In this document: piece by piece, positions 2,466-58,509 of the stretch
Layout: every line of letters starts with the position of its first letter
Numbering within the stretch: the first letter of the stretch is position 1
NCBI GenBank assembly: GCA_034440615.1
Contig: JAOTOM010002893.1
Coordinates: 1 to 64,000 of the forward strand
From: Ashinkailepas kermadecensis
Lineage: Eukaryota > Arthropoda > Thecostraca > Neolepadidae
Length of the DNA: 64,000 nt
Reading direction: 5' to 3'
Translations under genes and position numbers: made by a program
Notes under the pieces: generated by a model
Told to the model about the DNA's origin: nothing
What the model saw: the letters and a program-made list of their open reading frames with translations, nothing else
Databases searched by the model: none

Positions 2466-2615
2466 CTAGCTTTCCAGCGACTCCAGCAGCCGGCGGAGGT
2501 GTTGCGCCGCCTCCATCTGGCGGAGCGCCGTGACGCGCCGCCACGTCAGGGGACAGTCGAGCGACACGCAGAGCACCGGAGCTGCCGGCGACTGGCCGCA
2601 GCAGCCGGCACACAG
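2466..2615 (-). CDS. REV3L: REV3L exon 19 (CysB cluster and stop)
   Basis: Encodes LCAGCCGQSPAAPVLCVSLD then CPLTWRRVTALRQMEAAQHL and a short tail; the stop TAG is at 2466-2468. The cysteines have C-x2-C-x10-C-x4-C spacing, the CysB cluster that holds a [4Fe-4S] centre and binds the accessory B-subunit in polymerases of this family. The acceptor CCGACAG is phase 0, and the same CCGACAG|CTGTGTGCC string recurs throughout the upstream 68-bp array. Confidence 0.95.
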   Translation of the reverse strand: MCAGCCGQSPAAPVLCVSLDCPLTWRRVTALRQMEAAQHLRRLLESLES

Positions 2616-5600
2616 CTGTCGGTACACAGGACGCGACTGAGGCACACACGGGACACCACACCGGACACCGCCGGGGCACACAGCTGTCGGTACACAGGAC
2701 GCGACTGAGGCACACACGGGACACCACACCGGACACCGCCGGGGCACACAGCTGTCGGTACACAGGACGCGACTGAGGAACACACGGGACACCACATCGG
2801 ACACCGCCGGGGCACACACCTGTCGGTACACAGGACGCGACTGGGGCACACACGGGACACCACACCGGACACCGCCGGGGAACACAGCTGTCGGTACACA
2901 GGACGCGACTGAGGAACACACGGGACACCACACCGGACACCGCCGGGGCACACACGGAACACCACACCGGACACCGCCGGGGAACACAGCTGTCGGTACA
3001 CAGGACGCGACTGAGGCACACACGGGACACCACACCGGACACCGCCGGGGCACACACCTGTCGGTACACAGGACGCGACTGAGGCACACACGGGATACCA
3101 CACCGGACACCGCCGGGGCACACAGCTGTCGGTACACAGGACGCGACTGAGGAACACACGGGACACCGCCGGGGCAACACACCTGTCGATACACAGGACG
3201 CGACTGAGGAACACACGGGACACCACACCGGACACCGCCGGGGAACACACGGGACATCACACCGGACACCGCCGGGGCCACACCTGTCGGTACACAGGAC
3301 GCGACTGGGGCACACACGGGACACCACACCGGACACCGCCGGGGCACACAGCTGTCGGTACACAGGACGCGACTGAGGCACACACGGGACACCACACCGG
3401 ACACCGCCGGGGAACACAGCTGTCGGTACACAGGACGCGACTGAGGAACACACGGGACACCACATCGGACACCGCCGGGGCTACACCTGTCGGTACACAG
3501 GACGCGACTGGGGCACACACGGGACACCACACCGGACACCGCCGGGGAACACAGCTGTCGGTACACAGGACGCGACTGAGGCACACACGGGACACCACAC
3601 CGGACACCGCCGGGGCACACACGGGACACCACACCGGACACCGCCGGGAACACAGCTGTCGGTACACAGGACGCGACTGAGGCACACACGGGACACCACA
3701 CCGGACACCGCCGGGGCACACAGCTGTCGGTACACAGGACGCGACTGAGGCACACACGGGACACCACACCGGACACCGCCGGGGCACACAGCTGTCGGTA
3801 CACAGGACGCGACTGAGGCACACACGGGATACCACACCGGACACCGCCGGGGCACACACGGGACACCACACCGGACAGGACACTACACCGGACACCGCCG
3901 GGGCCAGCTGTCGGTACACAGGACGCGACTGAGGCCACACGGGACACCACACCGGACACCGCCGGGGCACACACGGGACACCACACCGGACACCGCCGGG
4001 GCCACAGCTGTCGGTACACAAGACGCGACTGAGGCACACACGGGACACCACACCGGACACCGCCGGGGCACAGCTGTCGGTACACAGGACGCGACTGAGG
4101 CACACACGGGACACCACACCGGACACCGCCGGGGCCACAGCTGTCGGTACACAGGACGCGACTGAGGCACACACGGGATACCACACCGGACACCGCCGGG
4201 GCCACACGGGACACACCGGACAGGACACCACACCGGACACCGCCGGGGCACAGCTGTCGGTACACAGTACGCGACTGAGGCACACACGGGACACCACACC
4301 GGACACCGCCGGGGAACACAGCTGTCGGTACACAGGACGCGACTGAGGAACACACGGGACACCGCCGGGGCCACACCTGTCGATACACAGGACGCGACTG
4401 AGGAACACGGGACACCACACCGGACACCGCCGGGGAACACACGGGACATCACACCGGACACCGCCGGGGCACACACCTGTCGGTACACAGGACGCGACTG
4501 GGGCACACACGGGACACCACACCGGACACCGCCGGGGCTAGCTGTCGGTACGCAGGACACGACTGAGGCACACACGGGACACCACACCGGACACCGCCGG
4601 GGCACACAGCTGTCGGTCACAGGACGCGACTGAGGACACACGGGACACCACATCGGACACCGCCGGGGCCACACCTGTCGGTACACAGGACGCGACTGGG
4701 GCACACACGACACCGCCGACGGGACACCACACCGGACACCGCCGGGGCGGCTGTCGGTACACAGGACGCGACTGAGGCCACACGGGACACCACACCGGAC
4801 ACCGCCGGGGCACACAGCTGTCGGTACACAGGACGCGACTGAGGCACACACGGGACACCACACCGGACACCGCCGGGGCACATACCTGTCGGTACACAGG
4901 ACGCGACTGATAAATACACGGGACACCACACCGGACACCGCCGGGGACCACAGCTGTCGGTACACAGGACGCGACTGAGGCACACACGGGACACCACACC
5001 GGACAACGCCGGGGCACACAGCTGTCGGTACACAGACACTGAGGAACCAGCTGTCGGTACACAGGACGCGACTGAGGCACACACGGGACACCACACCGGA
5101 CACCGCCGGGGCACAGCTGTCGGTACACAGGACGCGACTGAGGAACACACGGGACACCACACCGGACACCGCCGGGGCACACACGGAAACCACACCGGAC
5201 ACCCGGGGGAAACTGACACGGGCTGTCGGTACACAGGACGCGACTGAGGCCACACGGGACACCACACCGGACACCGCCGGGGCCACCCGAAAGGGACTGA
5301 GGCACACACGGGACACCACACCGGACACCGCCGGGGCTGTGAGCACACGGGACATCACACCGGACACCGCCGGGGCACACACCTGTCGGTACACAGGACG
5401 CGACTGAGGCACACACGGGACACCACACCGGACACCGCCGGGGAACACAGCTGTCGGTACACAGGACGCGACTGAGGCACACACGGGACACCACACCGGA
5501 TACCGCCGGGGCACACACGGGACACCACACCGGACACCGCGCCACACAGAGGACCATCACATGGCCAGCTGAGAAACACCATTGCACTAAACCACACGGA

Positions 5601-8600
5601 CACCTGAGGGGCATCACTACACAGCTAGCTCAGCAACACCACCACGTACATCCACAACACGCCGACCTGATCTCCAGCACGGGGCAGCTGCCCTGTTCAG
5701 CGCCACTGTCTGTCCCGCTGCCGGGACCCAGCTGGCTCAGCACCCGCCCCTACTCAGCTGACGCGTTTGAGAGGCTTTAGGCCGCATCGACTGCACTGGT
5801 CATGCAGCTCAGCTGGCGCGTCTGAGGGGCTTTAGGCCGCATCGACTGCACTGGTCATGCAGCTCAGCTGGCGCGTCTGAGGGGCTTTAGGCCGCATCGA
5901 CTGCACTGGTCATGCAGCTCAGCTGGCGCGTCCGCCGGCCGCGTGCTCACCTGGTGGACGGCGGCGGCCGCCCGCTGCCGGCTGCGCAGCGTGTCGGTCA
6001 GCAGCAGCCGGGTGCGCAGCGGGCGCCCGGCGCACCGGTCGCAGACGGCGCGCGCGGCGGCGGCACCACACGCGGCGCAGCTGCGGCCGGAGAAGTAGCG
6101 TGCGATGGTGCTGGGGGCGGCCAGGTGGGCCGGCGGCAGCCGCAGCGTGCGCGGCACGGCCGCGTGCCAGCCGGCCACGTCGGCGCCGAGCAGGCCGAGG
6201 CAGCGCTGCAGCGGCGGCGTCACGGCGCGGCTGACGTAGTACTCGGCGTTCAGCCGCAGGCCCGGCTCGGCCAGCAGCTCGGCCGGCGTGCGCACCAGCT
6301 GGATCAGCGGCAGGCCTGGCGCGCCGTACACCACCACGTGCGGCACGCGCTCGCCGACGCGCGGCTCGGCGCGTCGGTCCGCCTGCACCAGCCGGCTGGC
6401 GAGGTGGATACGAGGTCAACACGCCAGTCAGACGACACATCGACGCCGGCGTAAACCGACCGGCCGACTGCACTGCCGGTTCCGACATCTCACACTGGGC
6501 GCACGGCTTTGCGAACATGCCGACAGGGAACGGAGAGAACACACAGCTTACTGGACGCACATCGGGGGAGGATATGCATGACCAACCGGGACATGCACGA
6601 CGTTGACATACGTTGGCAACTTAAAAGGCAAGCCTTGTCATGACATATTGGCTGGGAAAGAGTCGGAAGCGCTTAAAGAATGAAATGTGATCGGAAGGGA
6701 ATCATGAACAGGATAAGGTTTCGAGGGCATCAGAACCGGACGAGGGTAGGGAGGGCACACTGACCGGGAGAGGGTTTGGAAGATATACTGATAGGGAGAG
6801 TGTGGAGAGGATATAATGACTGGATGAGGGTCCCGATGGTGTGCTCACTGGGAGATAGCCGGGGAGATAACATGAGGGCTGATTGCGAGACAACAAAGTA
6901 GCATATAGCTGGATAGTTAATGGGACATATTTGTCTAGGTGGGTGGGTATGCAATAGTGGTGGAGTGGAAGGTCTGCAAGTCATAAATAGCTGCCGGAAG
7001 AAAACCTACCAGGACATAACTAGACAGAGATACAAACTCACATGCCTCATTGGAACATAGCTAGACAGAGATACAAACTAAACATCGGTGAGGGGATGCC
7101 AGGCAGAACACGACGGAACGAGAGAAGCATGGCTCGTCAGTCTGCAGTCGCACTCCATCCAAACGTGCACTGTTCTTGTCTTTTTCACACGCAATCTTTC
7201 GTCGGATTCTGAACGTCTGATTAGCGCTAGTGATTTTACTTGATTTTCAGGCAGCACACTATGGGAAATGCGGCACGAGTTGAATGCAATATCAGCGTAA
7301 ACGTAAACCAAACACCAATTACGTCCCTGTGAGCCCCGCCAGTCTGAAATTAGTGAGGGGAGTCAACACCTATTTTGTGACGTTAAGCGTCTCCTGTCAG
7401 TAAGGCTAGAATCGACGCTACATCTACCACTCTGAGCCTCAGCAAGGAGGGAGTCCACACCTAACATGCGACCCTGCACGTCGGGTGTTAGTAGGACCAC
7501 AGTCGTCACCAACTCGATAACCCCAACTCAAACATCTGGTATCGGTAGGCCATAGTCCACACTCCACACCTACTCTGCAGCCCCGGACATCTGGCGTCAG
7601 TAGGACCACGGTCGGGACCTACTCTGCAGTCCCGGACATCTGGCGTCAGTAGGACCACGGTCGGGACCTACTCTGCAGCCCCGGACATCTGGCGTCAGTA
7701 GGACCACGGTCGGGACCTACTCTGCAGTCCCGGACATCTGGCGTCAGTAGGACCACGGTCGGGACCTACTCTGCAGTCCCGGACATCTGGCGTCAGTAGG
7801 ACCACGGTCGGGACCTACTCTGCAGCCCTGACATCTGGCGTCAGTAGGACCACGGTCGGGACCTACTCTGCAGCCCCGGACATCTGGCGTCAGTAGGACC
7901 ACGGTCGGGACCTACTCTGCAGTCCCGGACATCTGGCGTCAGTAGGACCACGGTCGGGACCTACTCTGCAGTCCCGGACATCTGGCGTCAGTAGGACCAC
8001 GGTCGGGACCTACTCTGCAGTCCCGGACATCTGGCGTCAGTAGGACCACGGTCGGGACCTACTCTGCGATCCTGAGCGCCGGCACACAGGCGGCCGGCCG
8101 GTAGTTGGCGCGGCCGCGGTACTCGCGCGCGAACGTCAGGTCGGCCAAGCTGACGCTGCCCTTGTGAATCTTCTCGAACTGACGCGTCACGTACGCCCGC
8201 ACCACGTCCAGGTCGTAGGAGTCGAAGAGGAGGCGCAGCGACTTCTCCAGGATCTGAAGCATGACGGACACAGGTTTCTCGGCCGCAGACACGTCCACAT
8301 GACGGACACAGGTTACTCAGCCGCAGGCATATCCACATGACAGACACAGGTTACTCAGCCGCAGGCATATCCACATGACGGACACAGGTTACTCAGCCGC
8401 AGGCATATCCACATGACGGACACAGGTTACTCAGCCGCAGGCATATCCACATGACGGACACAGGTTACTCAGCCGCAGACACGTCCACATGACGGACACA
8501 GGTTACTCAGCCGCAGGCATATCCACATGACGGACACAGGTTACTCAGCCGCAGGCATATCCACATGACGGACACAGGTTACTCAGCCGCAGACAAATCC

Positions 8601-32600: not shown

Positions 32601-35600
32601 ATCAACTTTCAACTTTGTTATTTCTGAGCACGGATGCATATGCAAAAATGAACGGTGCTTTAAATGGTTGCATTCATTTTGACCGTAGACATCTTATTGG
32701 TGCAATATGCTGTCAAAGTTAACCAACGCCGCTATGTTTAAAACCAGTTTCTGAGCTGAGGTGTAAACTAGCTGCGTTCATGAAGCTGTAAGTCCTGATT
32801 TAGCGATAGATCATAAAAGTAAGCATAGCATGGGACTGCTGGGCTCATCTGCTTTTCAAAATAATCGCAAATAAAAATGAACGGAAAATTATAGGACCTG
32901 GCTTGCACAATTATGTCCCGGAGGGTGATACAATAATTCATAAAACTTCCCGAGATAAGTGTGGAGTTATGCAGCGAGTTCCGCCGAGTTCTGCGAATAT
33001 TGTTCTACACAGCGACCCCATGCCTTCAGACCTTTGGATCCACGAGCCTTCAGATTGTGGATCCAAAGTTGCGCATACTAGCGCCAAATCCATAATTTCC
33101 AGTTTTAGTGTGGATGTGATGAAGCTACGCGGCACCTCAGTCAGCTGACGACCCTGTGTGGCGGCCGTCCGCCTTCGCTCCGGTGCCTGCGGTGGGCGTC
33201 AAATTAGCGGAGAGCGAGGCCCTGACCAATATGACACGGATAGGTCGGGTGACGAAGTCTTGTCACCCGACCTGTGCATGCGGAGTATACAGGTCACTGA
33301 CACACACCAGTGGGCTTCGTCAGATTGAAGCCTCGGGTAAAAAGGGCATTGCCGGCACGGCGCTACACAATTGTCGACCATGTTGATCTGACCAATATCG
33401 TGGTTGGCTCAAGCGTGATCAAAAACTCTGGGAGGCAGCAAATCTCGGAACCATGTTGAGATGGGAACTCTTCGAGCATATTTAACAGCATGCGGGTGTT
33501 ATCCAGACGATAGTTGATAGGTTAATTTCGTTTTCGACTCTAAAAAAGGATCACAGCTATCTGGTGATAAACTGAAACAGTGCAAGAGGTGCCTGTATAA
33601 CTTGCAGGCACGAACTTTGCTGGAACCAGGCTGGACAGCACAGAGAACAATATGTCCGCAAGCACGAAGGTTGGCTGAATGGTACGCTGATGGACATATT
33701 CATAACAGTGTCAACGAGTGGGGCGTTAACTTCAGCGGGGCGGGAACGTCCTGACTGTGAGTTCTCCGAACTGAAGTCAGCAGACGCGAAGACAAAGGCG
33801 ATGGTTAGTTCAACCAAACATTCGGCCGACACACTTGTCCACGCTATCAAAAGAAGGTAGAGTACAGGAACCGGCAGCATCCAGTAGAGCGGAGAATGCG
33901 TACTGGCAAGCGCAGATCGGAACACCGGATCAGCACACCATCTGTCTGTCTGAACTGGAAATCAATGTGACTTTGAGCTTCGTCACACCATGGTGGACGG
34001 AAAGTGGTCAACACTCTCACGAAAATGGCGTCTCATCGGCGCTGTGCATTCTGTGGTGCGACTCCCGCCGCCATCATGAACAATCTACAACATGTGTGCC
34101 AGCTGTCAGTTCGGACTGAGCACCCTCCACGCCTGGATAAGGACGTCAGAATGCATAGTGAAAATTGCATGCAGGGAAGAGCTGGAAAAGCGACAGATGC
34201 GAAATGTAGTAGATAAAGAGACATATAACGACAGAAAAACTGAAGTGAAAAGAATGTCCGGGAGCGAATGCATCTGCACGTTGACCAGCCTCGCAGCGGT
34301 GGTCAAGGATCGTCGAATGACAGTAACTCTGCCAAACTTGCGTTCCGGACTGAGGAGGCGGTTGTAGTGGTGATCGGTGCAGACAGACAGCTGATCAATC
34401 GGATGCAGTCATCCTGCAGACGATGCTGTCCGGATACGCCATCGACGTCCTGACATTCCAGGCGTACTGTGATGTGACAGTTGACCTGTACGTGTGACCT
34501 GTGACTGACCTGTGACCAAGTCCTGGCATGTGGCCTGTGATCAGGTTCGGACCCGTGGCCTGTGACTGACCTGCGACCAGGCTCTGACCGGTGACATGTC
34601 GTTGACCTGTGACTGACCTGTGACTGAGTGGACAGTCGGGCGGCCAGCGCCGCCAGCGCCGCCAGCTCGGTGGGCTGCCGGACCGCCGGACGACTGTCGT
34701 GCGGCTCGGGCGTCGGCTGCGATGGACGTCCGTCGGCGGCCTGCCGACGGCGGGCGCGCTCCTCCCGCCAGATGGCCGCCAGACCAGGGTTACCGGTCAC
34801 GCCCGACTCTGTGTAACACAGCAGCCAACCATAACACGCTCCTCCCGCCAGATGGCCGCCAGACCAGGGTTACCGGCCACGCCAGACTCTGTGTAACACA
34901 GCAGTCAACCATAACACGCTCCTCCCGCCAGATGGCCGCCAGACCAGGGTCACCGGTCACGCCCGACTCTGTGTAACACAGCAGTCAACCATAACACGCT
35001 CCTCCCGCCAGATGGCCGCCAGACCAGGGTCACCGGTCACGCCCGACTCTGTGTAACACAGCAGTCAACCATAACACGCTCCTCCCGCCAGATGGCCGCC
35101 AGACCAGGGTTACCGGCCACGCCAGACTCTGTGTAACACAGCAGTCAACCATAACACGCTCCTCCCGCCAGATGGCCGCCAGACCAGGGTTACCGGCCAC
35201 GCCAGACTCTGTGTAACACAGCAGTCAACCATAACACGCTCCTCCCGCCAGATGGCCGCCAGACCAGGGTCACCGGTCACGCCAGACTCTGTGTAACACA
35301 GCAGTCAACCATAACACGCTCCTCCCGCCAGATGGCCGCCAGACCAGGGTTACCGGCCACGCCAGACTCTGTGTAACACAGCAGTCAACCATAACACGCT
35401 CCTCCCGCCAGATGGCCGCCAGACCAGGGTTACCGGCCACGCCAGACTCTGCGGCACAGCAGCCAACCATAACCAGAGAGCGGGGCCACAACCACTCCTT
35501 TTGGTTTGCATTCACCATCGGAAAACATCGGCTATAGAAAGACTACCGAATAACGGTGCTGAGAGATGGGACCAACTCCACCGTCTCCCGCCTCCGATGG

Positions 35601-38600
35601 TAAGCCTAGCAAAACACGCTGGGTATGCATAAGGTTAACAGGGCCGCACCGACTCGAATACTTACGGAGCTAGATTAGTCATGTACCAGCAGCTATAGCA
35701 CTGGCCATGTGTCCCCGCAGGTAGCACCTGTGGCGTGCTCACAGGAGCTTATTGGCCAATCATCCGCAGGGGATAGCATCAATCATATATCTCCGAGTTA
35801 TCTCAGTAGTCGCTAAGCTATCCCCATGGGTAATTCAATGATCATCACATGTTGGTGGTCAGCTGCGTTCAGTTCAGAATGTGGCACATGGCTGTCGTCG
35901 GCTTGGTCCGGCTCAGGATGTTGGGCATGGATGTGGCCAGTTGGGTCCGGTCCAGGATGCAGGGTATGGCCGTAGCTAGTTGGGTTCGGTTCAGGACCTG
36001 AGGCATAGTTGTGGCTAGTTGGGTATGCTAGTAATGCATAACTATGGTTAGTTGGGTCCGGTTCAGGACGTGGGCCGTAACTATGATCAGTTAGGTCTGG
36101 TTCAAGATGTGAAGCATAACTGGGGTTAGTTGAGTCCAGTTCAGGACGTGAGTTGTGTTCGGGGATGTGGAGCATAACTGAAGTTAGTTAGGCCCAGTTC
36201 AGGATGTGAGGTGTTGGGTTTGGTTCAACATGTGGGGCGTAGCTGTTATTAGTTGGGTCCGGTTCAGGATGTGGGGTGTAACTGTGGTCAGTCGTGTCCA
36301 GCCTATGACGTGTGACGTACCGGTTGCCAGCTGGGTCCGGTTCAGGATGTGCGACGCGTGAACGTCCACTTCCAGTTCACAGCTGCTGACTGGAGCCGGG
36401 TCGGGCTGTCCAGATCCCTCTGCACCTGTGCAGTCCCCCACACACAGACAGTGAGTATACCAGACAGAAGATCCCTCTGCACCTGTGTAGCCCCACACAC
36501 AGACAGTGAGTATACCAGACAGAACTCGCTGCCCCTGGGCGAAGCAACAAAACGGTCAATCAAATTGGATCATTTGCCCCTGCGCAGTCATTTAAACACA
36601 TTGTACAGCGATAACAAATACAACTTTACCACGCCCAAGGGTACCATACACCCACAATTACAAAGGTGACATACAATACAGAGCGAGATAGCACACACAC
36701 ACATACTACACGCCACTGTAGAGTTCGTCACTGTACACCGCACAACGTTTTGAAACGTATTTTTTGCCCGAAAAGGTTTTATTATTTCCGATCGGTTTCC
36801 GGTGCATTTTCCGGCACTGATTCCGAATATGGCCCTACAAAATACAAAATCGCATCCCAAAAATTGACAGATTTTTTGTCACGGCCCGCTCGAAAACTTC
36901 GCGTTTGGTCACGTCTATATGGTACGGGCTACGGGACTTACGAACCAGTTGTCGCAGAGCGAGACAAACCGAGGACGATCACTTCCAGGCGAAATGAACT
37001 TGCCTACAGAAACAATCTTCCCTACATATTATCCACAAAAGAATCCACGCAGGCAAGAATAGATTGGGCAGAAAGGAAATAAACCCTTGCAAGAATAAAT
37101 TTGGCACAAAGCAACGCTAGTGTCGGACAGATACACCACATGAGTAGTATCGGTTCAAACGCATCAAACAAAAGCGTTCCGCGGAAAACAGGTTAAAATC
37201 ACAGTAACAAGCAAACATCTTAGTGCTGCGTTTTTAATGTTTTATGTTATTTACTGTTCCACTTGAAATTAATACAGATTTCATCTGAACTTTTACATGG
37301 TGTGCTACATAGCATTTAAACATGCATTTTGGCAAATCATGCCCACCTACGAGTATTTACCTAACTGCATGACACTATGCTGCATCAACACATTTTGGAT
37401 ACTGGTGTGTTATACATCAATGTAAATGCATTTTTTTAACAGTAGAAATGTATTCGGTAGCCCGGTTCTGAGGCATGTGACGCTTTAGAGACCTTCTTGC
37501 AAATAATTTCTTCTTAGCGCTCGCTTCCACCGCAAAACGGTGGCATTAGCGCCGTGGATGCCGCGGAGACGGCCGCCACATCACTAGCGACATCTACCGC
37601 GGATAATTGGCACCGATGGATGAGGTAGGGTCTCGGTCGGTATTTTGGGCTGATCTATTGCGCTACTAAGAGTTAATCGATGGCGATGCATCGACAATGG
37701 AGTACTTTGTATATAAAGCGTCAGTTGTGCCTCTATTCGTGCACCATTTCCTTGTGAGCTAGCGAGATTAGCAAGACGTTGACAGACACGACATTTTCAA
37801 ACGGTCAAATTTTGCGAATTCGTATTTTACATGGCTATATTCGGAATCAGCACCGGTAAATGCACCAGGAAACGATTGGAAATGAAACGTTTTGGAAAAG
37901 AAAATTGCAAACGTGCCCCCTTGGCACACCCCAGCATACACCAGACCAGCGTCGGAACCATCCAACTCCACGGCTGACTGAACTGGCAGAGGCGACGTCA
38001 GCTTACCGGTCAGTGCAGTGTACACCAGCCCTGTACCAGAACCATCCGACCCCGCGGCTGACTGCGCTGGCAGAGGAGACGTCAGCTTACCGGTCCGTGC
38101 AGTGTACACCAGCCCTGTACCAGAACCATCCGACCCTGCGGCTGACTGCGCTGGCAGAGGAGACGTCAGCTTACCGGTCCGTGCAGTGTACACCAGCCCT
38201 GTACCAGAACCATCCGACCCTGCGGCTGACTGCGCTGGCAGAGGAGACGTCAGCTTACCGGTCCGTGCAGTGCACACCAGCCCTGTACCAGAACCATCCG
38301 ACCCCGCGGCTGACTGCGCTGGCAGAGGAGACGTCAGCTTACCGGTCCGTGCAGTGCACACCAGCCCTGTACCAGAACCATCCGACCCTGCGGCTGACTG
38401 CGCTGGCAGAGGAGACGTCAGCTTATCGGTCCGTGCAGTGCACACCAGCCCTATACCGACCCCACGGCTGACTACGCTGGCAGAGGAGACGTCAGCTTAC
38501 CGCTGTGCCGCCGCACCTGGTGACTGGACACGTGCAGCAGGTTCATGCCTTGCAGGTTGAAGTCGATGAAGAACTGTAGCAGGTAGGGGATGTGCACCTC

Positions 38601-41280
38601 GTGCGGCTGGAACGACCGGTGCAGAACAGCGCCGCTCTGAGCAGAGCGCGAATAACAGGTCAGAACAGCAGTGTCGCTCTGAGGGGAGCCCAGACAACAG
38701 GCCACGACAGCACACCGCGGAGGACGCGAACAACAAGCCAAAACGGCACAGAGTGGTCATCGAACCTCACCACAGCACACAAGCGTTGGAACAGTCCCGA
38801 TAGCTATGACAAAGCTGCCTTGTAGTTTTTTTCTGATTGTATAACGCCGATGCCTTATATGCCTTACAACTTGGAAATGTATCCACATGTGTCAATGCTC
38901 ACTGCAGGGGCAATACCATAATAAAAAAACTTACTTCACAGTCAGCATACACTATACACTCCAACTATCGTTGGAAGATTTCCGAATAACGCTCTTTTTT
39001 CACGCATAGCTCTCCGAACACTGTGGTCCTGATGATTAATAAAACAAAGTACGTAGGGATGCACGAGAACGACTTAGCAATGCGATATTACGGTTCCTAT
39101 GCAAAAGCTGAACATCATTTAATTTTCTGCTCGTCCAACATGAATTACGTAAGCGGGATATAGTATGCAACAATATCCAAATCAAGGATGAGATTAATAT
39201 CCAGTTGTTCGCAGGCATATGGCTCGAACTACTTCCTGTATGAAGACTAGACGATTTCTACGAACTAGGATTGCAAAAATGGTGATTTTCTGGATATTCC
39301 AGAACTATAATCATTAGACAACTACATATGCCATGTTCATACCAATGCATTCACTTCTATAGTATGAACGTGTTCATCTGTGCTAGCAATCAGTGTGTTT
39401 CAAAATAGCTAGCCCGATTAGTGAGTTAACTACGGGTGACGGCGAAACCAGAGAGCTTACCATTTTGTATTTGAAAGAAAAGCATAATCCAACCCGGCTC
39501 TGCCCGAGCACTAAGCTATCCATGACTCTTTGTTCCAGCACTTCAAGTCCAAGTGTCATCAGCAATAATTTGAGCTTCTCATTGACGCTATAACTGCCAG
39601 GCGGGGGCCCCCTCATTATCCGGGATAGTCACCTAACTGTTAGCGCAATCGGGCACAAATTTGGCATATCTTCTGGCAATTGAATAGCGGATCCTTTTAT
39701 GTTCAATTTGTCAAGGGTGCTAAGGTTACCGAGCTAGACTAGGGCAATGCCAGATCACCGACTTCGAAATGTCATTTTTGGGTACTTTTCGCAGCGCTGT
39801 TAAAATAGGTCTTGAAAGAATCTAAAAACATTCAATATCCATCCCATATCCATATCCATCGAAAAGTTTGAGTGACCGTAGGTGAAGGCCAAGAAAAGAG
39901 TTTTATTTTCATGCTCAGAATTTCCAGTCTGGATTCACTGCATCACCACGCCAATCTGCGTCACATATTGCATGAATAGAATGCAAACTATAGCGTGCGT
40001 AACCGAGTGGTGACATGACAACTGGGCTACACAGGCCCCCGTCCGAGGGCGGGCATTGTCCAAGTCGCTAGTTTGGATCCACTCGTGAACGGGACTATTC
40101 TCAATACCCATGCACCACTGGGGAGATTCGGACATGCACTGCTTTGGTGGTGACATGCCTAATAAGCAATCCACCGGCATGTCCGGCCGGGTGAGGTGCA
40201 CAAATAAAGTAACTAGAATTACACTATGTATTGCCATTACTGGAGTGCACATGTCTAGTGTTGCAACATGAATATAAAACAATCTCGCCTGCATACCTGA
40301 AGCAACTCAGCAGCTTTTGCAATCATCCTTGGGTTGTAAAGGAACACCTTGAAAAAGAGGTGGTTTTTCTTATGGTATCCATAGAACGGTCTGAAACAAC
40401 AGCATGGTAGAATCAGACATGCTGGTGGCAGGTGTTCGGTTCAGGTTGCCAATGGCCCTTGGTCAGTTAGCAATGCTTTGCGACCGAAAATTGAACCAAA
40501 GGACTTGGCACCGGGTGCTAAGCAAAACTCAGCACAGCTGATCCCAGACCCCACACATACACCATGAACCAAGCCCGATTATAGAAGTAACTGACGGCGG
40601 GGCCAGGGCCTCGTCATTGCTGTATCGAGAAGGCTGGAGTGACACCCAGCATCAACCAGTACACAAGCATAGAACTAGCCAAAGCACATGGTCTTCGAAT
40701 AACCCCACATCACACATGATTAGATGGGCAAGAACAAGAGAACATGAGCAGGCAGAGAAACAATTAGTGGTAATTTAGCAATACGAAGAGGCATGGATGA
40801 GCACAAGTGAAACATGCATGACTTTCAGTTTGGTATGCAGAACAAGTTTTATATACAAAAATTGTGAAAGCACACAATATCGAGGGTTCAGCACCAGCAT
40901 CTGCCTGTGGCGCCCTGGAGTCAGACAAGCTAGGCAGTCTGAGCGACCCGAGCAACTTACACTCCCCGGACGAGCACCACCTTGTGGACGTTGAGCGTGG
41001 TCTGGCGGCCGGCGGCCAGGCCGAGCGCGCGGTCCAGGCCGGCGGCCAGCTGGTGCGCCGTGCCGGCCGCCGCGCCGCAGCCGTCCCACGGCACGTAGAA
41101 ATAGGGCAGCACGCCGTGCACGTGCACGCACGCCTTGGTGCCGTCGACGGTGGCGCCGAACACGCGGATGACGGGCGCGCGCGTCACGCTGCGGCCGCGG
41201 AACTCGGAGTAGGTGGCGTCCCATCCTGCCAGCGGCGGCACCATGCTGTGGTCGGCCGTCACCAGCCGGACGGACAGCAT
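2466..41280 (-). CDS. REV3L: DNA polymerase zeta catalytic subunit, whole gene (19 coding exons)
   Basis: This gene encodes the catalytic subunit of translesion polymerase zeta, a nuclear B-family enzyme that extends from mismatched or damaged primer ends with REV7 and accessory subunits. Seen: the N-terminal block beginning MLSVRLVTADHS, polymerase motifs DFQSLYPS and YGDTDS, the KKRYVGYMY block, and a C-terminal pair of cysteine clusters with REV3 spacing. Exons in transcript order are 41280-40961, 40390-40297, 38636-38501, 36425-36321, 34808-34618, 32146-31927, 29649-29481, 29024-28814, 28386-23349, 22348-17532, 16928-16778, 16329-16148, 14316-13414, 12318-12175, 10902-10654, 10297-10184, 8253-8068, 6382 (or 6395)-5951 and 2615-2466. 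Phases match at each junction except after exon 17. The model has about 4,603 residues, longer than human because of the middle region. Exons 6-8 are the least certain. Splicing was not tested against RNA. Confidence 0.95.
2616..5545 (-). repeat. 68-bp array in intron 18, about 43 copies
   Basis: On the minus strand the unit runs CTGTGTGCCCCGGCGGTGTC ... CGTCCTGTGTACCGACAG, and it abuts exon 19. Each full unit ends with the CCGACAG used as the exon 19 acceptor and starts with CTGTGTGCC, the first nine bases of exon 19. Copies are very similar; many are internally shortened. Unit length is not a multiple of three, so the long open frames through it switch between registers and are not genes. 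Confidence 0.95.
5546..5754. other. unique part of intron 18
   Basis: Short non-repetitive spacer between the 68-bp array and the 55-bp repeats. Nothing recognised. Confidence 0.4.
5755..5935. repeat. 55-bp repeat, about 3 copies, beside exon 18 donor
   Basis: Unit contains CAGCTGGCGCGTCTGAGGGG then CTTTAGGCCGCATCGACTGC. The last copy runs into the end of exon 18 (GCTGGCGCGTCCGCC). The unit includes the dispersed motif also found at 15325, 23130, 42310 and 57130. Confidence 0.85.
5951..6395 (-). CDS. REV3L: REV3L exon 18 (thumb end, CysA zinc cluster)
   Basis: Encodes RAEPRVGERVPHVVVYGAPG, LPLIQLVRTPAELLAEPGLR and LNAEYYVSRAVTPPLQRCLG, followed by SCAACGAAAARAVCDRCAG. The last is the CysA cluster with C-x2-C-x8-C-x2-C spacing as in human. 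The exon ends RQRAAAAVHQ at donor GTGAGC (5945-5950), phase 0. Two acceptors are possible: ccgcag-like gtgcag before 6382 (phase 0) or ctcgccag before 6395 (needs one base from exon 17). The interval given uses the longer form. Confidence 0.95.
6700..6880. repeat. degenerate repeat in intron 17
   Basis: Imperfect ~35-40 bp units around GGGAGAGGGTTTGGAAGATA / GGGAGAGTGTGGAGAGGATA. A separate pair of ~36-bp direct repeats (ACATAGCTAGACAGAGATAC) lies at 7015-7080. Confidence 0.5.
7340..8058 (-). repeat. 49-bp array at the exon 17 donor, about 15 copies
   Basis: Unit (plus strand) GGGACCTACTCTGCAGTCCC then GGACATCTGGCGTCAGTAGG. Copies from about 7600 to 8058 are almost identical; those from 7340 to 7600 are strongly diverged, so homogeneity falls with distance from the exon. 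The unit carries a degenerate copy of the exon 17 end (exon: GCTCAGGATCGCAGAGTAGG; unit: TCCGGGACTGCAGAGTAGG). Confidence 0.93.
8068..8253 (-). CDS. REV3L: REV3L exon 17, donor site apparently missing
   Basis: Encodes ILEKSLRLLFDSYDLDVVRA, then FAREYRGRANYRPAACVPAL ending LRI, matching the REV3 thumb. The acceptor is gtcatgcttcag, phase 0. The 3' end is a problem: after ATC (8068-8070) the frame reads GCA GAG TAG, and the first GT (8057-8058) follows that stop. A GC donor at |GCAGAG joined to the acceptor before 6382 would preserve the frame (LRI then ADRRAEP). The adjacent 49-bp array begins exactly here. Either the gene is damaged, the assembly is wrong, or a non-canonical donor is used. 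Confidence 0.9.
8262..9640 (-). repeat. 38-bp array at the exon 17 acceptor, about 33 copies
   Basis: Unit (plus strand) TATCCACATGACGGACACAG then GTTACTCAGCCGCAGGCA. It starts about 10 bases upstream of exon 17, sharing GTGTCCGTCATG with the acceptor region. Patches of A-runs and odd insertions interrupt it at 8600-8630, 8838-8890, 9068-9110 and 9200-9215. Confidence 0.93.
9641..10183. other. rest of intron 16
   Basis: No repeat or gene recognised beyond the array. Composition is mixed. Confidence 0.4.
10184..10297 (-). CDS. REV3L: REV3L exon 16 (KKRYVGYMY block)
   Basis: Encodes TKKRYVGYMYQTPEQQKPVY then DAKGIETVRRDGCPAVAK, the conserved thumb-proximal region that contacts primer DNA. The acceptor is gcggtgtttcag and the donor GTAACG, both phase 0. 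Confidence 0.97.
10654..10902 (-). CDS. REV3L: REV3L exon 15 (motif C, YGDTDS)
   Basis: Encodes VGDSVVSKGRETLERAARTI, then ARVVYGDTDSLFVLLKGRSR and PHPVKLNFEKVYQPCILQ. YGDTDS (around 10792-10809) supplies the catalytic aspartates of motif C. The acceptor is gtgccggcag and the donor GTACCG; both phase 0. Confidence 0.97.
10903..11317. other. intron 14, part near exon 15
   Basis: AT-rich intronic sequence with only short chance frames. Nothing recognised. Confidence 0.4.
11318..11515. repeat. degenerate ~27-bp repeat in intron 14
   Basis: Recurring blocks of the form CGACGCCGACTGCT / CGATACCGATTGCT / CGACACCGATCATT, each preceded by TTCGCGC- or CACAC-type sequence. About seven diverged copies. 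Confidence 0.6.
11516..12004. other. intron 14, middle
   Basis: Nothing recognised in this AT-rich stretch. Confidence 0.35.
12005..12115. repeat. 24-bp repeat near exon 14 donor, 4-5 copies
   Basis: Unit AGTGTCGTCTGAACCCTATC CATT, with copies stepping by 24 bases (12055, 12079, 12103). It lies about 60 bases inside intron 14. Confidence 0.75.
12175..12318 (-). CDS. REV3L: REV3L exon 14 (motif B)
   Basis: Encodes VKKAMQANKDNTAVHRLLDF then KQLGLKLIANVTYGYTSANF and SGRMPCIE. This is motif B, the fingers helix carrying the conserved lysine and tyrosine that bind the incoming nucleotide. The acceptor is cgaccgcag and the donor GTCAGT; both phase 0. A near-exact family match. Confidence 0.97.
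12364..12440. repeat. 19-bp repeat near exon 14 acceptor, 4 copies
   Basis: Perfect or near-perfect ACGTCGCTACAGTCTGGTA units beginning about 45 bases upstream of exon 14 in transcript direction. Confidence 0.9.
12441..13184. other. intron 13, unique part
   Basis: AT-rich, no gene or repeat recognised. Confidence 0.4.
13185..13413 (-). repeat. degenerate repeats of the exon 13 donor
   Basis: On the minus strand GTGGTGAGAGCACGTCCGAC and ATGGTGAGAGCACGTCCGAC recur downstream of the true ATCATG|GTGAGAGCACGCCC junction. At least three donor-like copies are clear, then decayed ones (ATGGTGGGGACACATCACGG). Confidence 0.8.
13414..14316 (-). CDS. REV3L: REV3L exon 13 (exonuclease-like domain end, palm, motif A)
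   Basis: A 903-bp exon encoding about 301 residues. It runs from IQQLSWGYLFERSERLGRPI through GRIVLNVWRLLRPEVAL, YHVLHQRLP, GIQFFDVIARGTQFRVESMM and PSVQQRAAARAPEYLPLILE to VVLDFQSLYPSMIIAYNY, which is polymerase motif A with its catalytic aspartate (near 13651-13690). It ends GVLPDMLSDILNTRIM. Acceptor cctgccgccag and donor GTGAGA (13408-13413) are both phase 0. A poly-alanine stretch (about 14165-14215) is an insertion relative to human. Family identity is unambiguous. Confidence 0.97.
14317..14928 (-). repeat. 44-bp array at the exon 13 acceptor, about 14 copies
   Basis: Minus-strand unit: ATCCAGCACCTGTCCTGG, then TGACCGGTGCGCACACCTGC CGCCAG. Each unit therefore carries the exon 13 acceptor (GCCGCCAG) plus a near-copy of the first 18 coding bases (exon: ATCCAGCAACTGTCCTGG). 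The array stops abruptly at 14928. The long plus-strand frames through it are artefacts. Confidence 0.95.
14929..15449. other. middle of intron 12
   Basis: Unique sequence apart from the dispersed motif TTTTAGGGCGCGCCGACTAA ... TTGCGCCC at about 15320-15357. Confidence 0.45.
15450..16147 (-). repeat. 60-bp array at the exon 12 donor, about 11 copies
   Basis: Minus-strand unit contains GACCCGGACATCCTGCTCGG CTGGGAG|GTCAGTAG, i.e. the last 27 coding bases of exon 12 plus its donor, followed by ~25 bases of spacer. Proximal copies are nearly identical; the most distal ones (15450-15660) differ more. With the acceptor array at the other end, most of intron 12 is derived from its own two splice junctions. 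Confidence 0.95.
16148..16329 (-). CDS. REV3L: REV3L exon 12
   Basis: Encodes CIVVDEPSVRAECAGG and YVADEPSLMQAVVDLVIGTD ending PDILLGWE, matching the REV3 exonuclease-fold block that ends YDPDILLGYEIQ. In REV3 this fold lacks proofreading activity. The acceptor is ggccggcag and the donor GTCAGT at 16142-16147, phase 0. The last 27 coding bases and the donor are repeated about eleven times downstream. Confidence 0.95.
16335..16640. repeat. degenerate array at the exon 12 acceptor side
   Basis: Recurring CGCTCACCACAGCAGCGACT and GACTCTCACTGTAGCGGCTA blocks, including three exact 21-bp copies at 16548-16612. It begins a few bases upstream of exon 12. I could not align the unit to exon sequence. 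Confidence 0.75.
16778..16928 (-). CDS. REV3L: REV3L exon 11
   Basis: Encodes YQYLTCLSMELHALTRDDLR then PDPDQDPVVAVFYHIIDDVP, matching the start of the REV3 exonuclease-like domain (ISVELHARTRRDLEPDPEFD). The acceptor is ctgtgttttcag, phase 0. The donor is GTAGTC at 16772-16777, a weaker site supported by phase agreement with exon 12. Confidence 0.93.
17384..17426. repeat. 14-bp repeat, 3 copies, in intron 10
   Basis: GGTTCACGTGGCAC repeated three times, each with the palindrome CACGTG. The rest of intron 10 (16929-17531) shows nothing else. Confidence 0.85.
17532..22348 (-). CDS. REV3L: REV3L exon 10, second giant exon with REV7-binding segment
   Basis: A 4,817-bp open exon encoding about 1,605 residues. 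The acceptor is gtaatcggcag with two bases completing the codon from exon 9; the donor is GTGAGT at 17526-17531, phase 0. The C-terminal end (STDDTYGFRLDAGDLQDAQC) matches the animal REV3 segment NNTYGFKVSIQNLQEAKA just before the exonuclease-like domain. LTPVRLPPSWHAIQTWLD at about 18183-18248 aligns with the human REV7-binding peptide. The rest is disordered, with in-frame repeats: SPDEV-type (22020-22230), a 21-residue PEPGSGPWRAPSEEMSVVAG unit (about 12 copies, 20360-21110) and a 17-residue unit containing VMSGCDNGGDRLSL (three copies, 19210-19375). Confidence 0.9.
19210..19375 (-). repeat. 51-bp coding repeat in exon 10
   Basis: Three near-identical copies encoding VMSGCDNGGDRLSLSPV. Unit length is a multiple of three, so the reading frame is kept. 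Confidence 0.9.
20360..21110 (-). repeat. 63-bp coding repeat in exon 10, about 12 copies
   Basis: Encodes a 21-residue unit with the core PEPGSGPWRAPSEEMSVVAG; variants carry SEEMPGMTDSQ. The copy types alternate in blocks, which suggests segment-wise duplication. Confidence 0.92.
22349..23348. other. intron 9
   Basis: Ends are simple repeats: (TCTGAC)n-like pyrimidine tract before the exon 10 acceptor (22368-22395) and purine-rich GAGAGTGAGAGTG / GGCAGGCAGACAGACA tract after the exon 9 donor (23205-23275). A dispersed GGGCGC...GCGCC motif lies at 23118-23160. The middle shows nothing recognised. Confidence 0.55.
23349..28386 (-). CDS. REV3L: REV3L exon 9, giant exon of the middle region
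   Basis: A single open exon of 5,038 bp encoding about 1,680 residues, analogous to the single very large REV3L exon of vertebrates but with little recognisable sequence. The acceptor is ctggtctgcag (28387-28389), phase 0; the donor is GTGAGA at 23343-23348, phase 1. The protein is rich in Pro, Ala, Arg, Asp and Ser. It holds in-frame repeats: GPDRTTADQC decapeptides (27790-28215), SGLSPRK heptads (26085-26160), VGAEAVAEWPVEP 13-mers (25460-25632) and RPPVYQVP octads (24636-24835). No catalytic motif is expected here. The open frame runs on past the donor to 23164, so that tail is probably intronic. Confidence 0.85.
24636..24835 (-). repeat. 24-bp coding repeat in exon 9
   Basis: Eight diverged octapeptides of the type RPPVYQVP (RPSVYQVP, RPPDHQLP, RPPGYQVS, RPPGSQVP and so on). 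Frame is kept. Confidence 0.8.
25460..25632 (-). repeat. 39-bp coding repeat in exon 9, 4 copies
   Basis: Encodes VGAEAVAEWPVEP with small changes (WQVEP, WPMEP, VGTEA). Frame is kept. Confidence 0.88.
26085..26160 (-). repeat. 21-bp coding repeat in exon 9
   Basis: Tandem SGLSPRK heptapeptides, four to five copies, basic and Ser/Pro rich, resembling a run of SPxK phosphorylation-type motifs. Confidence 0.85.
27790..28215 (-). repeat. 30-bp coding repeat in exon 9, about 14 copies
   Basis: Encodes GPDRTTADQC decapeptides with variants GPDLTTTDLA, DPDRTTAGRA and CPDRTTVDQC, near the start of exon 9. Frame is kept. Confidence 0.9.
28387..28813. other. intron 8
   Basis: No repeat or gene recognised. 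Confidence 0.4.
28814..29024 (-). CDS. REV3L: REV3L exon 8 (probable)
   Basis: Encodes a Ser/Thr/Pro/Glu-rich linker (LKPVSTGESTCTAVRSS; EVVPTSREPSPTSREPSPAN). Its short SREPSP repeats fit the disordered region after the REV3 N-terminal domain. The donor is GTAAGA at 28808-28813, phase 0. The acceptor is tttagAG followed by GGCTG; phase requires the second AG, giving exon start 29024. No family match is visible, so the call rests on splice sites, phase and open frame. Confidence 0.6.
29025..29480. other. intron 7
   Basis: No tandem array is seen here, unlike most introns of the gene. Nothing recognised. Confidence 0.4.
29481..29649 (-). CDS. REV3L: REV3L exon 7 (probable)
   Basis: Encodes DTQDDSLADALLCLMSPVEE, then an acidic Gln/Glu-rich stretch and LEMSQVVWSQHDIPARD. 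This resembles the REV3 region containing DSSPDEALVHLLAGLES and the following MSQRWD block. The acceptor is gtgtttcag, with two bases completing the leucine codon begun in exon 6. The donor is GTGAGG, phase 2. The 25-bp array filling intron 6 appears to derive from this exon's GACGCTCTGCT sequence. Confidence 0.75.
29668..31245 (-). repeat. 25-bp array in intron 6, about 62 copies
   Basis: Minus-strand unit GCTGTGTCCGATGTGTGGAC GCTCT, with few variants. It ends about 20 bases from exon 7. The distal end (31225-31262) reads GGATGGCTCGTTAGCGGCCG CTCTGCT, a near-copy of exon 7 GACGACTCGTTAGCAGACGC TCTGCT. The array therefore looks as if it grew from a duplicate of exon 7 coding sequence. The long frames through it on both strands are artefacts. 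Confidence 0.95.
31246..31926. other. intron 6, part near exon 6
   Basis: Unique sequence after the array. Nothing recognised. Confidence 0.4.
31927..32146 (-). CDS. REV3L: REV3L exon 6 (probable)
   Basis: Encodes about 73 residues starting VESSPAGSASQLDASLAAEC and ending DVNEQLVLQLSQRADSSLP. The end resembles the REV3 stretch around MELSLVMSQRWDS. The donor is GTGAGT at 31921-31926. The acceptor is either ccgcgccag (32146) or cctctcag (32113), both phase 0. Its exon status rests on phase agreement with exons 5 and 7, GC-rich coding composition and the weak protein match. Confidence 0.7.
32147..34479. other. intron 5, mostly unique
   Basis: At 32455-32545 there are diverged GACCTGTGACTGA-type repeats similar to those at the other end of the intron. 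Otherwise only short chance frames, and no gene recognised. Confidence 0.45.
34480..34617 (-). repeat. repeated donor-like units at the exon 5 donor
   Basis: On the minus strand CACAGGTCAGTCACAGGTCA follows the exon 5 junction (CACAG|GTCAGT) and recurs with spacing of ~25-50 bases, giving at least four copies of CACAG|GTCAGT/GTCA. Confidence 0.8.
34618..34808 (-). CDS. REV3L: REV3L exon 5
   Basis: Encodes GVTGNPGLAAIWREERARRR and an alanine/leucine-rich tail ending LAARLSTQSQ, matching the REV3 GNPGLQAIW segment. The acceptor is gtgttacacag, with two bases completing the codon begun in exon 4. The donor is GTCAGT at 34612-34617, phase 0. The first ~45 coding bases with the acceptor are repeated eight more times upstream at an 80-bp period. 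The donor is embedded in short CACAGGTCAGT repeats. Confidence 0.9.
34809..35462 (-). repeat. 80-bp array at the exon 5 acceptor, 8 extra copies
   Basis: Copies step exactly 80 bases (34801, 34881, ... 35441, plus strand). Each contains the acceptor GTGTTACACAG followed by AGTCTGGCGTGGCCGGTAAC and the codons for NPGLAAIWREER, so eight partial exon 5 copies with functional-looking acceptors precede the real exon. 80 is not a multiple of three. Confidence 0.96.
35463..35812. other. middle of intron 4
   Basis: Short unique stretch between the acceptor-side and donor-side arrays. Nothing recognised. Confidence 0.4.
35813..36320 (-). repeat. diverged ~42-bp array from the exon 4 end, about 12 copies
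   Basis: Minus-strand units contain CACATCCTGAACCGGACCCA, matching exon 4 coding sequence for HILNRTQ, then AACTAA(C/T)-type spacer. The copy nearest the exon is almost exact; divergence rises towards 35813. Confidence 0.88.
36321..36425 (-). CDS. REV3L: REV3L exon 4
   Basis: Encodes a short linker and then SSCELEVDVHASHILNRTQL, matching the REV3 motif CELEVD..A.DILNR. The donor is GTACGT at 36315-36320, phase 1. Two acceptors in the same phase are possible (cacag at 36426 or gtgcag six bases further in); the first is chosen. Downstream, an array of diverged copies of this exon end fills half of intron 4. Confidence 0.85.
36426..36535 (-). repeat. 57-bp direct repeat at the exon 4 acceptor, 2 copies
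   Basis: The unit contains GTATACTCACTGTCTGTGTG TGGGG...CACAGGTGCAGAGGGATCT. Both copies have the acceptor and the first coding bases of exon 4. Confidence 0.88.
36737..37930. mobile_element. inverted-repeat-flanked element in intron 3
   Basis: About 150 bases at 36737-36890 are repeated in inverted orientation at 37780-37930 with ~70-75% identity. Both carry GGTGCATTT(T/A)CCGG, then CTGATTCCGAATATGGC-like sequence. The ~1.2-kb interior has no clear gene, a TATATAAAG box at about 37710 and a small hairpin CCACCGCAAAACGGTGG at 37528. Likely a non-autonomous transposon; no target duplication was identified. Confidence 0.6.
37931..38500 (-). repeat. 84-bp array at the exon 3 donor, about 6 copies
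   Basis: Each minus-strand unit contains ACCG|GTAAGCTGACGTCTCCTC, a copy of the exon 3 donor (CAGCG|GTAAGCTGACGTCTCC). Copies step 84 bases. Because 84 is divisible by three, an open frame of 28-residue repeats results, but it lies inside the intron. The most distal copy is diverged. Confidence 0.95.
38501..38636 (-). CDS. REV3L: REV3L exon 3
   Basis: Encodes SGAVLHRSFQPHEVHIPYLL followed by QFFIDFNLQGMNL, a highly conserved REV3 block. The acceptor is gctctgctcag and the donor GTAAGC at 38495-38500; the exon ends in phase 1. Both flanks carry tandem copies of the junctions: an 84-bp array with repeated donors downstream, and about three degenerate copies of the acceptor plus exon start upstream (38637-38760). 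Confidence 0.94.
38637..38760 (-). repeat. degenerate copies of the exon 3 acceptor and start
   Basis: Upstream of exon 3 the minus strand reads CCTCAGAGCGACACTGCTGT TCTG, a near-copy of the real junction CTCAG|AGCGGCGCTGTTCTG, with one or two further decayed copies at ~43-base spacing. Confidence 0.75.
38761..40296. other. intron 2
   Basis: Unique AT-rich sequence. Nothing recognised. Confidence 0.4.
40297..40390 (-). CDS. REV3L: REV3L exon 2
   Basis: A 94-bp exon encoding PFYGYHKKNHLFFKVFLYNP then RMIAKAAELLQ, matching the REV3 segment that follows exon 1 in animals. The acceptor is ttgtttcag and the donor GTATGC. It completes the split codon from exon 1 and ends in phase 0. It is too short and too flanked by introns to stand out as an open frame, and was found by searching for the expected protein. 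Confidence 0.93.
40391..40960. other. intron 1
   Basis: Unique sequence, nothing recognised. Confidence 0.4.
40961..41280 (-). CDS. REV3L: REV3L exon 1 (first coding exon)
   Basis: Encodes residues 1-106. It opens MLSVRLVTADHS and includes VIRVFGAT and LPYFYVPWDG, the conserved start of REV3 proteins. The ATG at 41278-41280 matches the family start. The open frame continues 11 codons upstream without another ATG. A possible acceptor (gttgacag) lies about 24 bases upstream, so a non-coding 5' exon is possible. The donor is GTAAGT (40955-40960) and the exon ends with two bases of a split valine codon. Confidence 0.93.
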
Positions 41281-41560
41281 GCCGGCGCTGCTGCTGCCGC
41301 CTCCTGTCAACAAAACCTCAGGTCAGCGCGTCACAGTGTCTGCCACCGTCCGGCGCAGCTGCTGCCGCCTCCTGCCGACAGCACGTCTGGTCAGCTGCGT
41401 CAAATTGGGGCTGGCACCGGCTGACAGCATGGCGACAGGCTGCTGCAGCCACCTCCTGTCAACAGCACACAGCAGACTGCTGGTGAGCTGCACAACAGAC
41501 CGTTGGTGAGCTGCATAACAGACTGTTGGTGAGCTGCACAGAAGTGGCTGCCACTGCAGT
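41281..41560 (-). repeat. diverged duplicate of the start-codon exon region
   Basis: Minus-strand TTGACAGGAGGTGGCTGCAG CAGCCTGTCGCCATGCTGTC (about 41420-41465) resembles the true TTGACAGGAGGCGGCAGCAG CAGCGCCGGCATGCTGTC just before exon 1. Next to it, a ~22-bp unit (GGTGAGCTGCACAACAGAC) repeats three times at 41480-41545. This is the 5' flank of REV3L; no promoter element was recognised. Confidence 0.65.
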
Positions 41561-58039: not shown

Positions 58040-58509
58040 CTGACGTCTACTGTGGCGGGCCAGGGTCGCAGAGCAAACCGTCCACTGTGGTGGACCGGGG
58101 CTGTGGAGCACACCTTCTACTATGGCGGACCAGAGCCGCGAAGCACACCGTCCACTCTGGCGGACCGTTGCCGCGAAGCACATGGTCCACCGTAACGGAC
58201 CGGAGCCTCGGAGCACACCGTCCACTGTGGCGGATCAGGGCCGCGGAGTACATCATCAACTGTGACAGACCAGGGTCGCAGAGTACACCGTCCACTGTGG
58301 TGGACCGGTGCCGTAGGGCACACCTACTATGACGGACTAGGGCCGCGAAGCATAGCGTCCACTGCGGCGGATCAGGGCCACGGAGTACATCATCCACTGT
58401 GGTGGATCAGGGTCGCGGAGCAAATCGTCCACTGTGGCGGATCAGGGCCGTGGAGTACACCGTCGATTGTGCCAGATCGGGGCCACGGAGCACATCGCCC
58501 ACTGTGGCG
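58040..58509. repeat. 35-bp satellite, about 13 copies
   Basis: Unit GTCCACTGTGGCGGACCAGG GCCGCGGAGCACACC with moderate divergence. It continues for ~50 bases at 59002-59055 after an inserted element. Confidence 0.9.

Follow-up and report, generated by a model that had tools for sequence, protein, structure and literature searches.

Background

How introns lengthen, and how a cell picks the right splice site among near-identical copies of it, are two open questions that are touched by a single gene on contig JAOTOM010002893.1 of the Ashinkailepas kermadecensis assembly GCA_034440615.1. We analysed positions 1 to 64,000 of this contig (hereafter the window), whose minus strand carries REV3L, the gene for the catalytic subunit of DNA polymerase zeta. 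A preliminary description of this DNA had noticed tandem arrays abutting many REV3L exons and had proposed that local duplication repeatedly starts at exon ends, lengthening introns with copies of their own splice sites. Are exon ends indeed copied into the adjoining introns, in which direction, and are junctions preferred? We report that a third of the REV3L junctions have such copies. In our reading, to which we give a probability of about 0.6, the arrays are mirage-type minisatellites, produced by a general tandem duplication process that straddled exon-intron borders and was filtered by selection. The name 'mirages' has been given to minisatellite-like tandem duplications of exon-intron boundaries in the amphioxus genes Adh3, TnC, PGBD5 and the globin genes BflGb6 and BflGb9, as described in passages of PMC3087553 and PMC3902484.

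Methods

The gene model was built from tblastn searches with seven REV3L proteins and by phase matching; its least certain boundaries are those where exons 4, 8 and 10 begin and where exon 9 ends. Arrays were called on the minus strand with Tandem Repeats Finder (period of at least 10, merged within 30 bp). This gave 20 intronic arrays, a set that excludes a 42-bp array at the exon 3 acceptor and an array upstream of exon 1. All copy numbers were taken from a single assembly.

For the junction test, 57 bases (45 exonic, 12 intronic) from each junction were searched against the rest of the adjoining intron. A junction passed when it scored above all 33-34 non-adjacent junction stretches searched in the same intron. 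A stiffer test used exon-only 40-mers and harsher gap costs, a junction again passing when it beat all controls.

Results and discussion

The REV3L gene

The window contains an open REV3L gene of 19 exons and 4,594 codons plus stop, in which 18 of 18 introns are GT-AG.

2466-41280, minus strand: REV3L coding region, from tblastn of seven REV3L proteins, the assembled frame and Pfam

The ATG lies at 41280, and the only stop, at 2466, ends the frame. Pfam recognises REV3_N, POL3_N, DNA_pol_B_exo1, DNA_pol_B and the C-terminal zinc finger zf-C4pol, and the top match among solved structures is yeast Rev3. Two exons are giant, exon 9 with 5,038 nt and exon 10 with 4,817 nt. Arrays fill 10,388 of the 25,030 intron bases, which bears out the earlier proposal that they have lengthened the introns; the six introns in which no array is listed measure 356-1,660 bp each.

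Junctions copied into their own introns

At 12 of the 36 junctions the copy in the junction's own intron beat every control in the 57-base test. These are the acceptors of exons 3, 4, 5, 7, 13 and 19 and the donors of exons 3, 4, 5, 12, 13 and 17, whereas control stretches from exon interiors passed in 1 case out of 114. The twelve coincide exactly with the exon sides named as array-bearing in the preliminary description, and all nine unit lengths given there (25, 42, 44, 49, 57, 60, 68, 80 and 84 bp) are found in the Tandem Repeats Finder output. Its statement that most introns are concerned holds for arrays of any kind, present in 12 of 18 introns (13 if the 42-bp array at the exon 3 acceptor is counted), but not for junction copies, present in 9 of 18. 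Its further statement, that the unit in most cases includes the splice site and a piece of exon, is correct at up to 11 of the 12 copied junctions, where the repeat unit itself spans the exon-intron border; it fails at the exon 7 acceptor, and the exon 4 donor is degenerate in this respect. The arrays at the twelve junctions are the following.

38633-38712, minus strand: degenerate 42-bp array, 1.9 copies, crossing the exon 3 acceptor (first exonic base 38636); Tandem Repeats Finder, score 33 vs 23
37955-38502, minus strand: 84-bp array of 6.6 copies running from the exon 3 donor, where the exon ends at base 38501; identity over 2 exonic and 20 intronic bases
36412-36524, minus strand: 55-bp array, 2 copies, crossing the exon 4 acceptor, 14 exonic bases copied; Tandem Repeats Finder, alignment and 57-base test
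35872-36321, minus strand: degenerate 39-bp arrays past the exon 4 donor, together with copies of 31 exonic bases from the end of exon 4; best copy without GT
34757-35473, minus strand: 80-bp array, 9 copies, crossing the exon 5 acceptor; about 52 exonic bases copied
34509-34627, minus strand: short arrays of 11- to 25-bp units crossing the exon 5 donor; 7 exonic bases copied
29667-31253, minus strand: 25-bp array, 63 copies, stopping 17 bp before exon 7; coordinates include the far-end copy of exon 7
15509-16174, minus strand: 60-bp array, 10.6 copies, crossing the exon 12 donor; copies include 27 exonic bases, the best of them matching at 47/47
14299-14923, minus strand: 44-bp array, 14.2 copies, crossing the exon 13 acceptor; 18 exonic bases copied
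13195-13422, minus strand: 29/57-bp array crossing the exon 13 donor; weak, 28.5 vs 27.5
7568-8067, minus strand: 49-bp array, 10.2 copies, crossing the exon 17 donor; 5 identical exonic bases, a number that rises when gaps are allowed
2607-5540, minus strand: 68-bp array, most of intron 18, crossing the exon 19 acceptor; best copy with 9 exonic bases identical

Judged by score against the control maximum, the weakest junctions are the exon 3 acceptor and the exon 13 donor, with the scores listed, and the exon 3 donor (29.5 vs 25), which has just 2 ungapped exonic bases in common with its unit. At the exon 4 donor, GT is gone from the copies and the border bases are degenerate. The 25-bp unit at the exon 7 acceptor lacks the splice site; the start of exon 7 is copied (25 of 30 bases) at 31253, 1.6 kb upstream, at the far end of the array proper (29667-31235), as if the first duplication had been larger than the later unit. 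The largest copy count found at one junction was 32, at the exon 19 acceptor.

Under the stiffer 40-mer test 9 of the 36 junctions passed, namely both sides of exon 4, the acceptors of exons 5, 7, 8, 13 and 19 and the donors of exons 12 and 18, with a margin of just one or two points at the exon 8 acceptor and the exon 18 donor. Exon 3, on both its sides, and the donors of exons 5, 13 and 17 failed this exon-only test. A cruder test went against the junction claim, as a near copy was found for 7 of 36 junction 30-mers compared with a mean of 10.5 at shifted positions; we consider the test poor, since arrays take up so large a share of each intron.

A single satellite spreading through the gene was considered and rejected, since the unit lengths differ and at the 12 junctions the intron's own junction matches it better than all non-adjacent ones do. 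This agrees with the earlier view that the arrays are independent events.

Direction of copying

The copied exon ends fall in conserved REV3L protein, shared with yeast or kept across nine animals, which makes the exon the source of the copies and the intron their recipient. At the border of exons 12 and 13, DPDILLGWE followed by IQQLSWGYL aligns with yeast Rev3. Among the aligned relatives, conservation is 6/6 for GAV of exon 3, 4/6 for ILN at the end of exon 4, 6/6 for NPG of exon 5, 9/9 for IL.TR.M at the end of exon 13, 8/9 for VPAL at the end of exon 17 and 9/9 for the two cysteines of exon 19.

As to the history of the copies, all 13 intron copies of the exon 13 acceptor have C where the exon has A, a pattern that would fit a single founder duplication whose intron copies then spread among themselves. 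Copies of the exon 3 donor are 98% alike and 75% like the gene junction, and the other four arrays examined have no fixed difference between copies and gene junction. Continual re-copying from the exon was not supported, since with growing distance the copies became neither consistently more nor consistently less like the gene junction (rho from -0.67 to +0.71 across six arrays).

Spare splice sites

Nine junctions were examined for the splice dinucleotide. Six of them gave 75 ungapped copies, of which 73 retain it, a proportion biased upward because copies were picked by similarity; the other three junctions gave no ungapped copy. We then considered the nearest identical spare sites, up to four at each of seven junctions, an eighth having none. 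Use of 20 of these 22 sites would bring a stop within the exon read, for instance after 6 codons at the exon 13 acceptor, 1 at the exon 17 donor and 30-59 at the exon 5 acceptor. The two exceptions are the sole site at the exon 4 acceptor, which adds 57 nt in frame, and one of the four at the exon 19 acceptor. On these predicted readings spare-site use would mostly be harmful, so that the cell would have to choose the exon-proximal site.

Arrays inside coding exons

Tandem arrays are not restricted to the introns. In the 11 exonic arrays compared, the period is always a multiple of three, against 6 of 20 intronic arrays (one-sided Fisher p = 1.5e-4). Array density is alike in the two compartments, with 10 arrays in the 9.9 kb of giant exons 9 and 10 and 20 in 25 kb of intron, while the remaining 17 exons contain one mainly exonic array, of 12-bp period, in exon 6. 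The 10 arrays of exons 9 and 10 (17532-28386) are all in-frame coding arrays; two of those compared are given here.

20339-21101, minus strand: in-frame coding array in exon 10, 63/189 bp
27807-28222, minus strand: in-frame coding array in exon 9, 30/90 bp

The uniform periods and the similar density together suggest what appears to be a general duplication process filtered by selection.

Array positions relative to junctions

Eleven of the 20 intronic arrays have a junction no more than 20 bp away, compared with a mean of 1.04 when arrays were placed at random in the same intron (maximum of 6 in 5,000 trials), and 14 have one within 50 bp, compared with a mean of 2.56. By strict coordinates 7 of the 20 span a junction. 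With alignments the number rises to 10, a post hoc count in which the donors of exons 3, 4 and 12 were added to the strict seven after the alignments had been viewed. Random seeding on the present array-free intron length predicts 3.0 spanning arrays (P = 0.013 for seven, 5e-5 for ten), and GC-matched seeds predict 3.9 (P = 0.06 for seven, 7e-4 for ten). A two- to threefold excess at junctions is thus likely, although one gene does not suffice to secure it.

A probable explanation: general duplication under selection

The reading that we favour is that short tandem duplication would occur all along the gene, probably by slippage or unequal exchange, and that selection would then decide what is kept. 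Conserved exons would remain almost without arrays, the giant unconserved exons would keep multiples of three, and introns would be free to accept any length. A duplication with one end in the exon and the other in the intron would be tolerated, because the exon-adjacent copy would leave the exon complete and its splice site functional, and the surplus would become intron. The first unit of each tandem duplication would accordingly have straddled the exon-intron border. The intron copies would multiply among themselves while selection holds the gene copy, and introns would thereby grow, filling with spare splice sites. The remaining two- to threefold excess at junctions may come from introns that were shorter when the arrays began, or from the composition of exon flanks. 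The data show the structure, the direction from exon to intron, the frame filter in the exons, the kept splice dinucleotides and the stops that most spare sites would bring; how the duplications arose, that the animal splices the gene correctly and that the arrays are neutral are our inferences.

Several observations weigh against this reading. The excess over random seeding is not fully explained (10/20 compared with 3.0-3.9), and the array-free introns of REV3L, at 356-1,660 bp, are not short. Moreover, 4 of the 11 near-junction arrays end before they reach the junction, which would not be expected from simple straddling. One is the 25-bp array at the exon 7 acceptor (17 bp). The other three, at exons 12, 17 and 18, were absent from the preliminary description and have no significant exon copy across the junction.

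16348-16639, minus strand: 21/63-bp array stopping 18 bp before the exon 12 acceptor; exon copy not found
8260-9622, minus strand: 38-bp array stopping 6 bp short of the exon 17 acceptor, without a significant exon copy
5753-5932, minus strand: 55-bp array, 3.3 copies, beginning 18 bp past the exon 18 donor, without a significant exon copy spanning the junction

Inside the 38-bp array, at 8612-9215, homopolymer runs (T 8-17, G 8) take the place of some copies; they make up seven of the gene's few runs of at least 7 and look like damaged long-read consensus.

The excess at junctions could also mean that duplication is directed there, the chromatin, transcription or sequence of the border being a preferred start of tandem duplication in A. 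kermadecensis. The 12 copied junctions out of 36, the 11 of 20 array edges within 20 bp and the 7-10 spanning arrays against 3.0-3.9 expected all agree with such a bias. However, with GC-matched seeds the strict count is of marginal significance (P = 0.06), arrays are as dense in the giant exons, away from junctions, and the 30-mer comparison (7/36 against 10.5) goes the other way. Nor does unit folding supply a cause: hairpin-prone units were rejected as an explanation, since |z| stays under 1.2 in 10 of the 11 folded units, the exception being a dimer of the 25-bp unit (z = -4.1). We regard this alternative as unlikely, although it deserves serious consideration. The proposal that duplication repeatedly starts at exon ends is not established; it has the excess of spanning arrays in its favour, and is weakened by the similar array density of the giant exons, by the period filter in exons, which indicates a general process, by P values of up to 0.06, and by the disappearance of the excess when introns of about 150 bp are assumed.

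This last calculation belongs to a second alternative, according to which the ancestral introns were short (100-200 bp) and most unit-sized duplications spanned a junction by geometry, without any bias. With introns of 150 bp, 8.9 spanning arrays are expected and the probability of at least ten is 0.38, so that no excess remains. With introns of 300 bp, P is 0.23 for seven and 0.013 for ten, and the six introns without a listed array have the greater lengths given above. As a complete account this is rather improbable, but short ancestral introns can be part of the best explanation.

That repeat assembly made false tandem copies is very unlikely, even though there is one assembly only and one array has homopolymer runs in place of copies, as in a damaged consensus, because the copies differ from the exon and from each other and occur at 12 separate places with different units in a gene whose frame is open over 19 exons. 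It is just as hard to believe that the arrays are functional, with spare sites regulating splicing or making poison transcripts that control the REV3L level, since the kept dinucleotides are likewise expected from a recent spread of copies, the exon 4 donor copies lack GT, and two of the 22 sites examined bring no stop, against the 20 that do.

Relation to known systems

Passages of PMC3087553 describe amphioxus mirages at both kinds of border, with units of 10-160 bp, many of which keep AG/GT, with splicing apparently undisturbed and copy number differing between haplotypes. As far as these passages allow comparison, the REV3L arrays share four structural features with mirages: units that span the exon-intron border, occurrence at both boundaries (6 donors and 6 acceptors), unit length (11 to 84 bp, inside the amphioxus range) and AG/GT retention, which is frequent in the REV3L copies and lost at the exon 4 donor. 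In amphioxus the copies of a cluster, those at the boundary excepted, evolve in concert and are alike among themselves; the REV3L copies may resemble them in this, the exon 13 acceptor fitting such a pattern and four arrays having no fixed difference. In contrast to what these passages report, REV3L has 12 of 36 junctions affected in one gene, beside in-frame coding arrays, in an animal that is probably not a cephalochordate. The passages of PMC2206037 that deal with amphioxus huntingtin mention tandem repeats and no mirages.

Two other systems are related. PMC4974935 and passages of PMC2891723 describe intron gain by tandem duplication carrying splice signals, in potato, where the duplication crosses an intron-exon boundary, and also in Drosophila. 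As presented there, one duplication yields a new intron, whereas in REV3L existing introns grow by many copies; we noticed no new intron in REV3L, the intron positions of relatives lying outside the comparison. GC-rich avian genes with tandem-repeat introns (leptin, TNF-alpha, MRPL52, PCP2 and PET100) appear in passages of PMC6792250. They share with REV3L a GC-rich gene and introns rich in tandem arrays, but the motifs described there are G-rich and quadruplex-capable rather than copies of exon ends, and 10 of 11 REV3L units fold unremarkably.

The preliminary description knew of no account of this many junction-anchored arrays in one gene. Arrays of this kind were already known, under the name of mirage, in amphioxus, while no report of 12 such junctions in one gene was found in the open-licence literature of PubMed Central. 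We conclude that REV3L is a dense new example of the mirage kind, probably outside cephalochordates.

REV3L relatives and the rest of the window

The best-scoring REV3L relative among the best 120 of 3,367 matches is a leafhopper protein (54% identical), and in the tree the protein forms a long unplaced branch of unusual composition. From the low REV3L identity we infer that the animal is not a sequenced amphioxus.

A 23-bp array of 3.2 copies (41468-41541) precedes the REV3L start codon by about 190 bp. Two arrays occur outside the gene, at 50088-51064 (21 bp, 47 copies) and at 58044-58509 (35 bp, 13 copies). An open reading frame at 62071-63099 encodes 342 amino acids without a Pfam match, its best named relative being an uncharacterised barnacle protein (47%). 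Finally, retroelement remains are indicated at 43696-44106 and 54805-55668 by a fragment of reverse transcriptase (RVT_1) and by a match to RNase H that falls slightly below the cut-off.

Conclusions

The 12 copied junctions of REV3L provide, within one gene, many replicates of one kind of event, for which both the direction of copying and the correct splice site are known. It is doubtful, though conceivable, that borders are true duplication hot spots throughout the genome and that introns here grow mainly by copies of their own splice sites, in a lineage outside cephalochordates that would then offer a natural experiment on site choice by the spliceosome. If the pattern were genome-wide, it would extend the mirages of amphioxus to another lineage and tie minisatellite turnover to intron growth.

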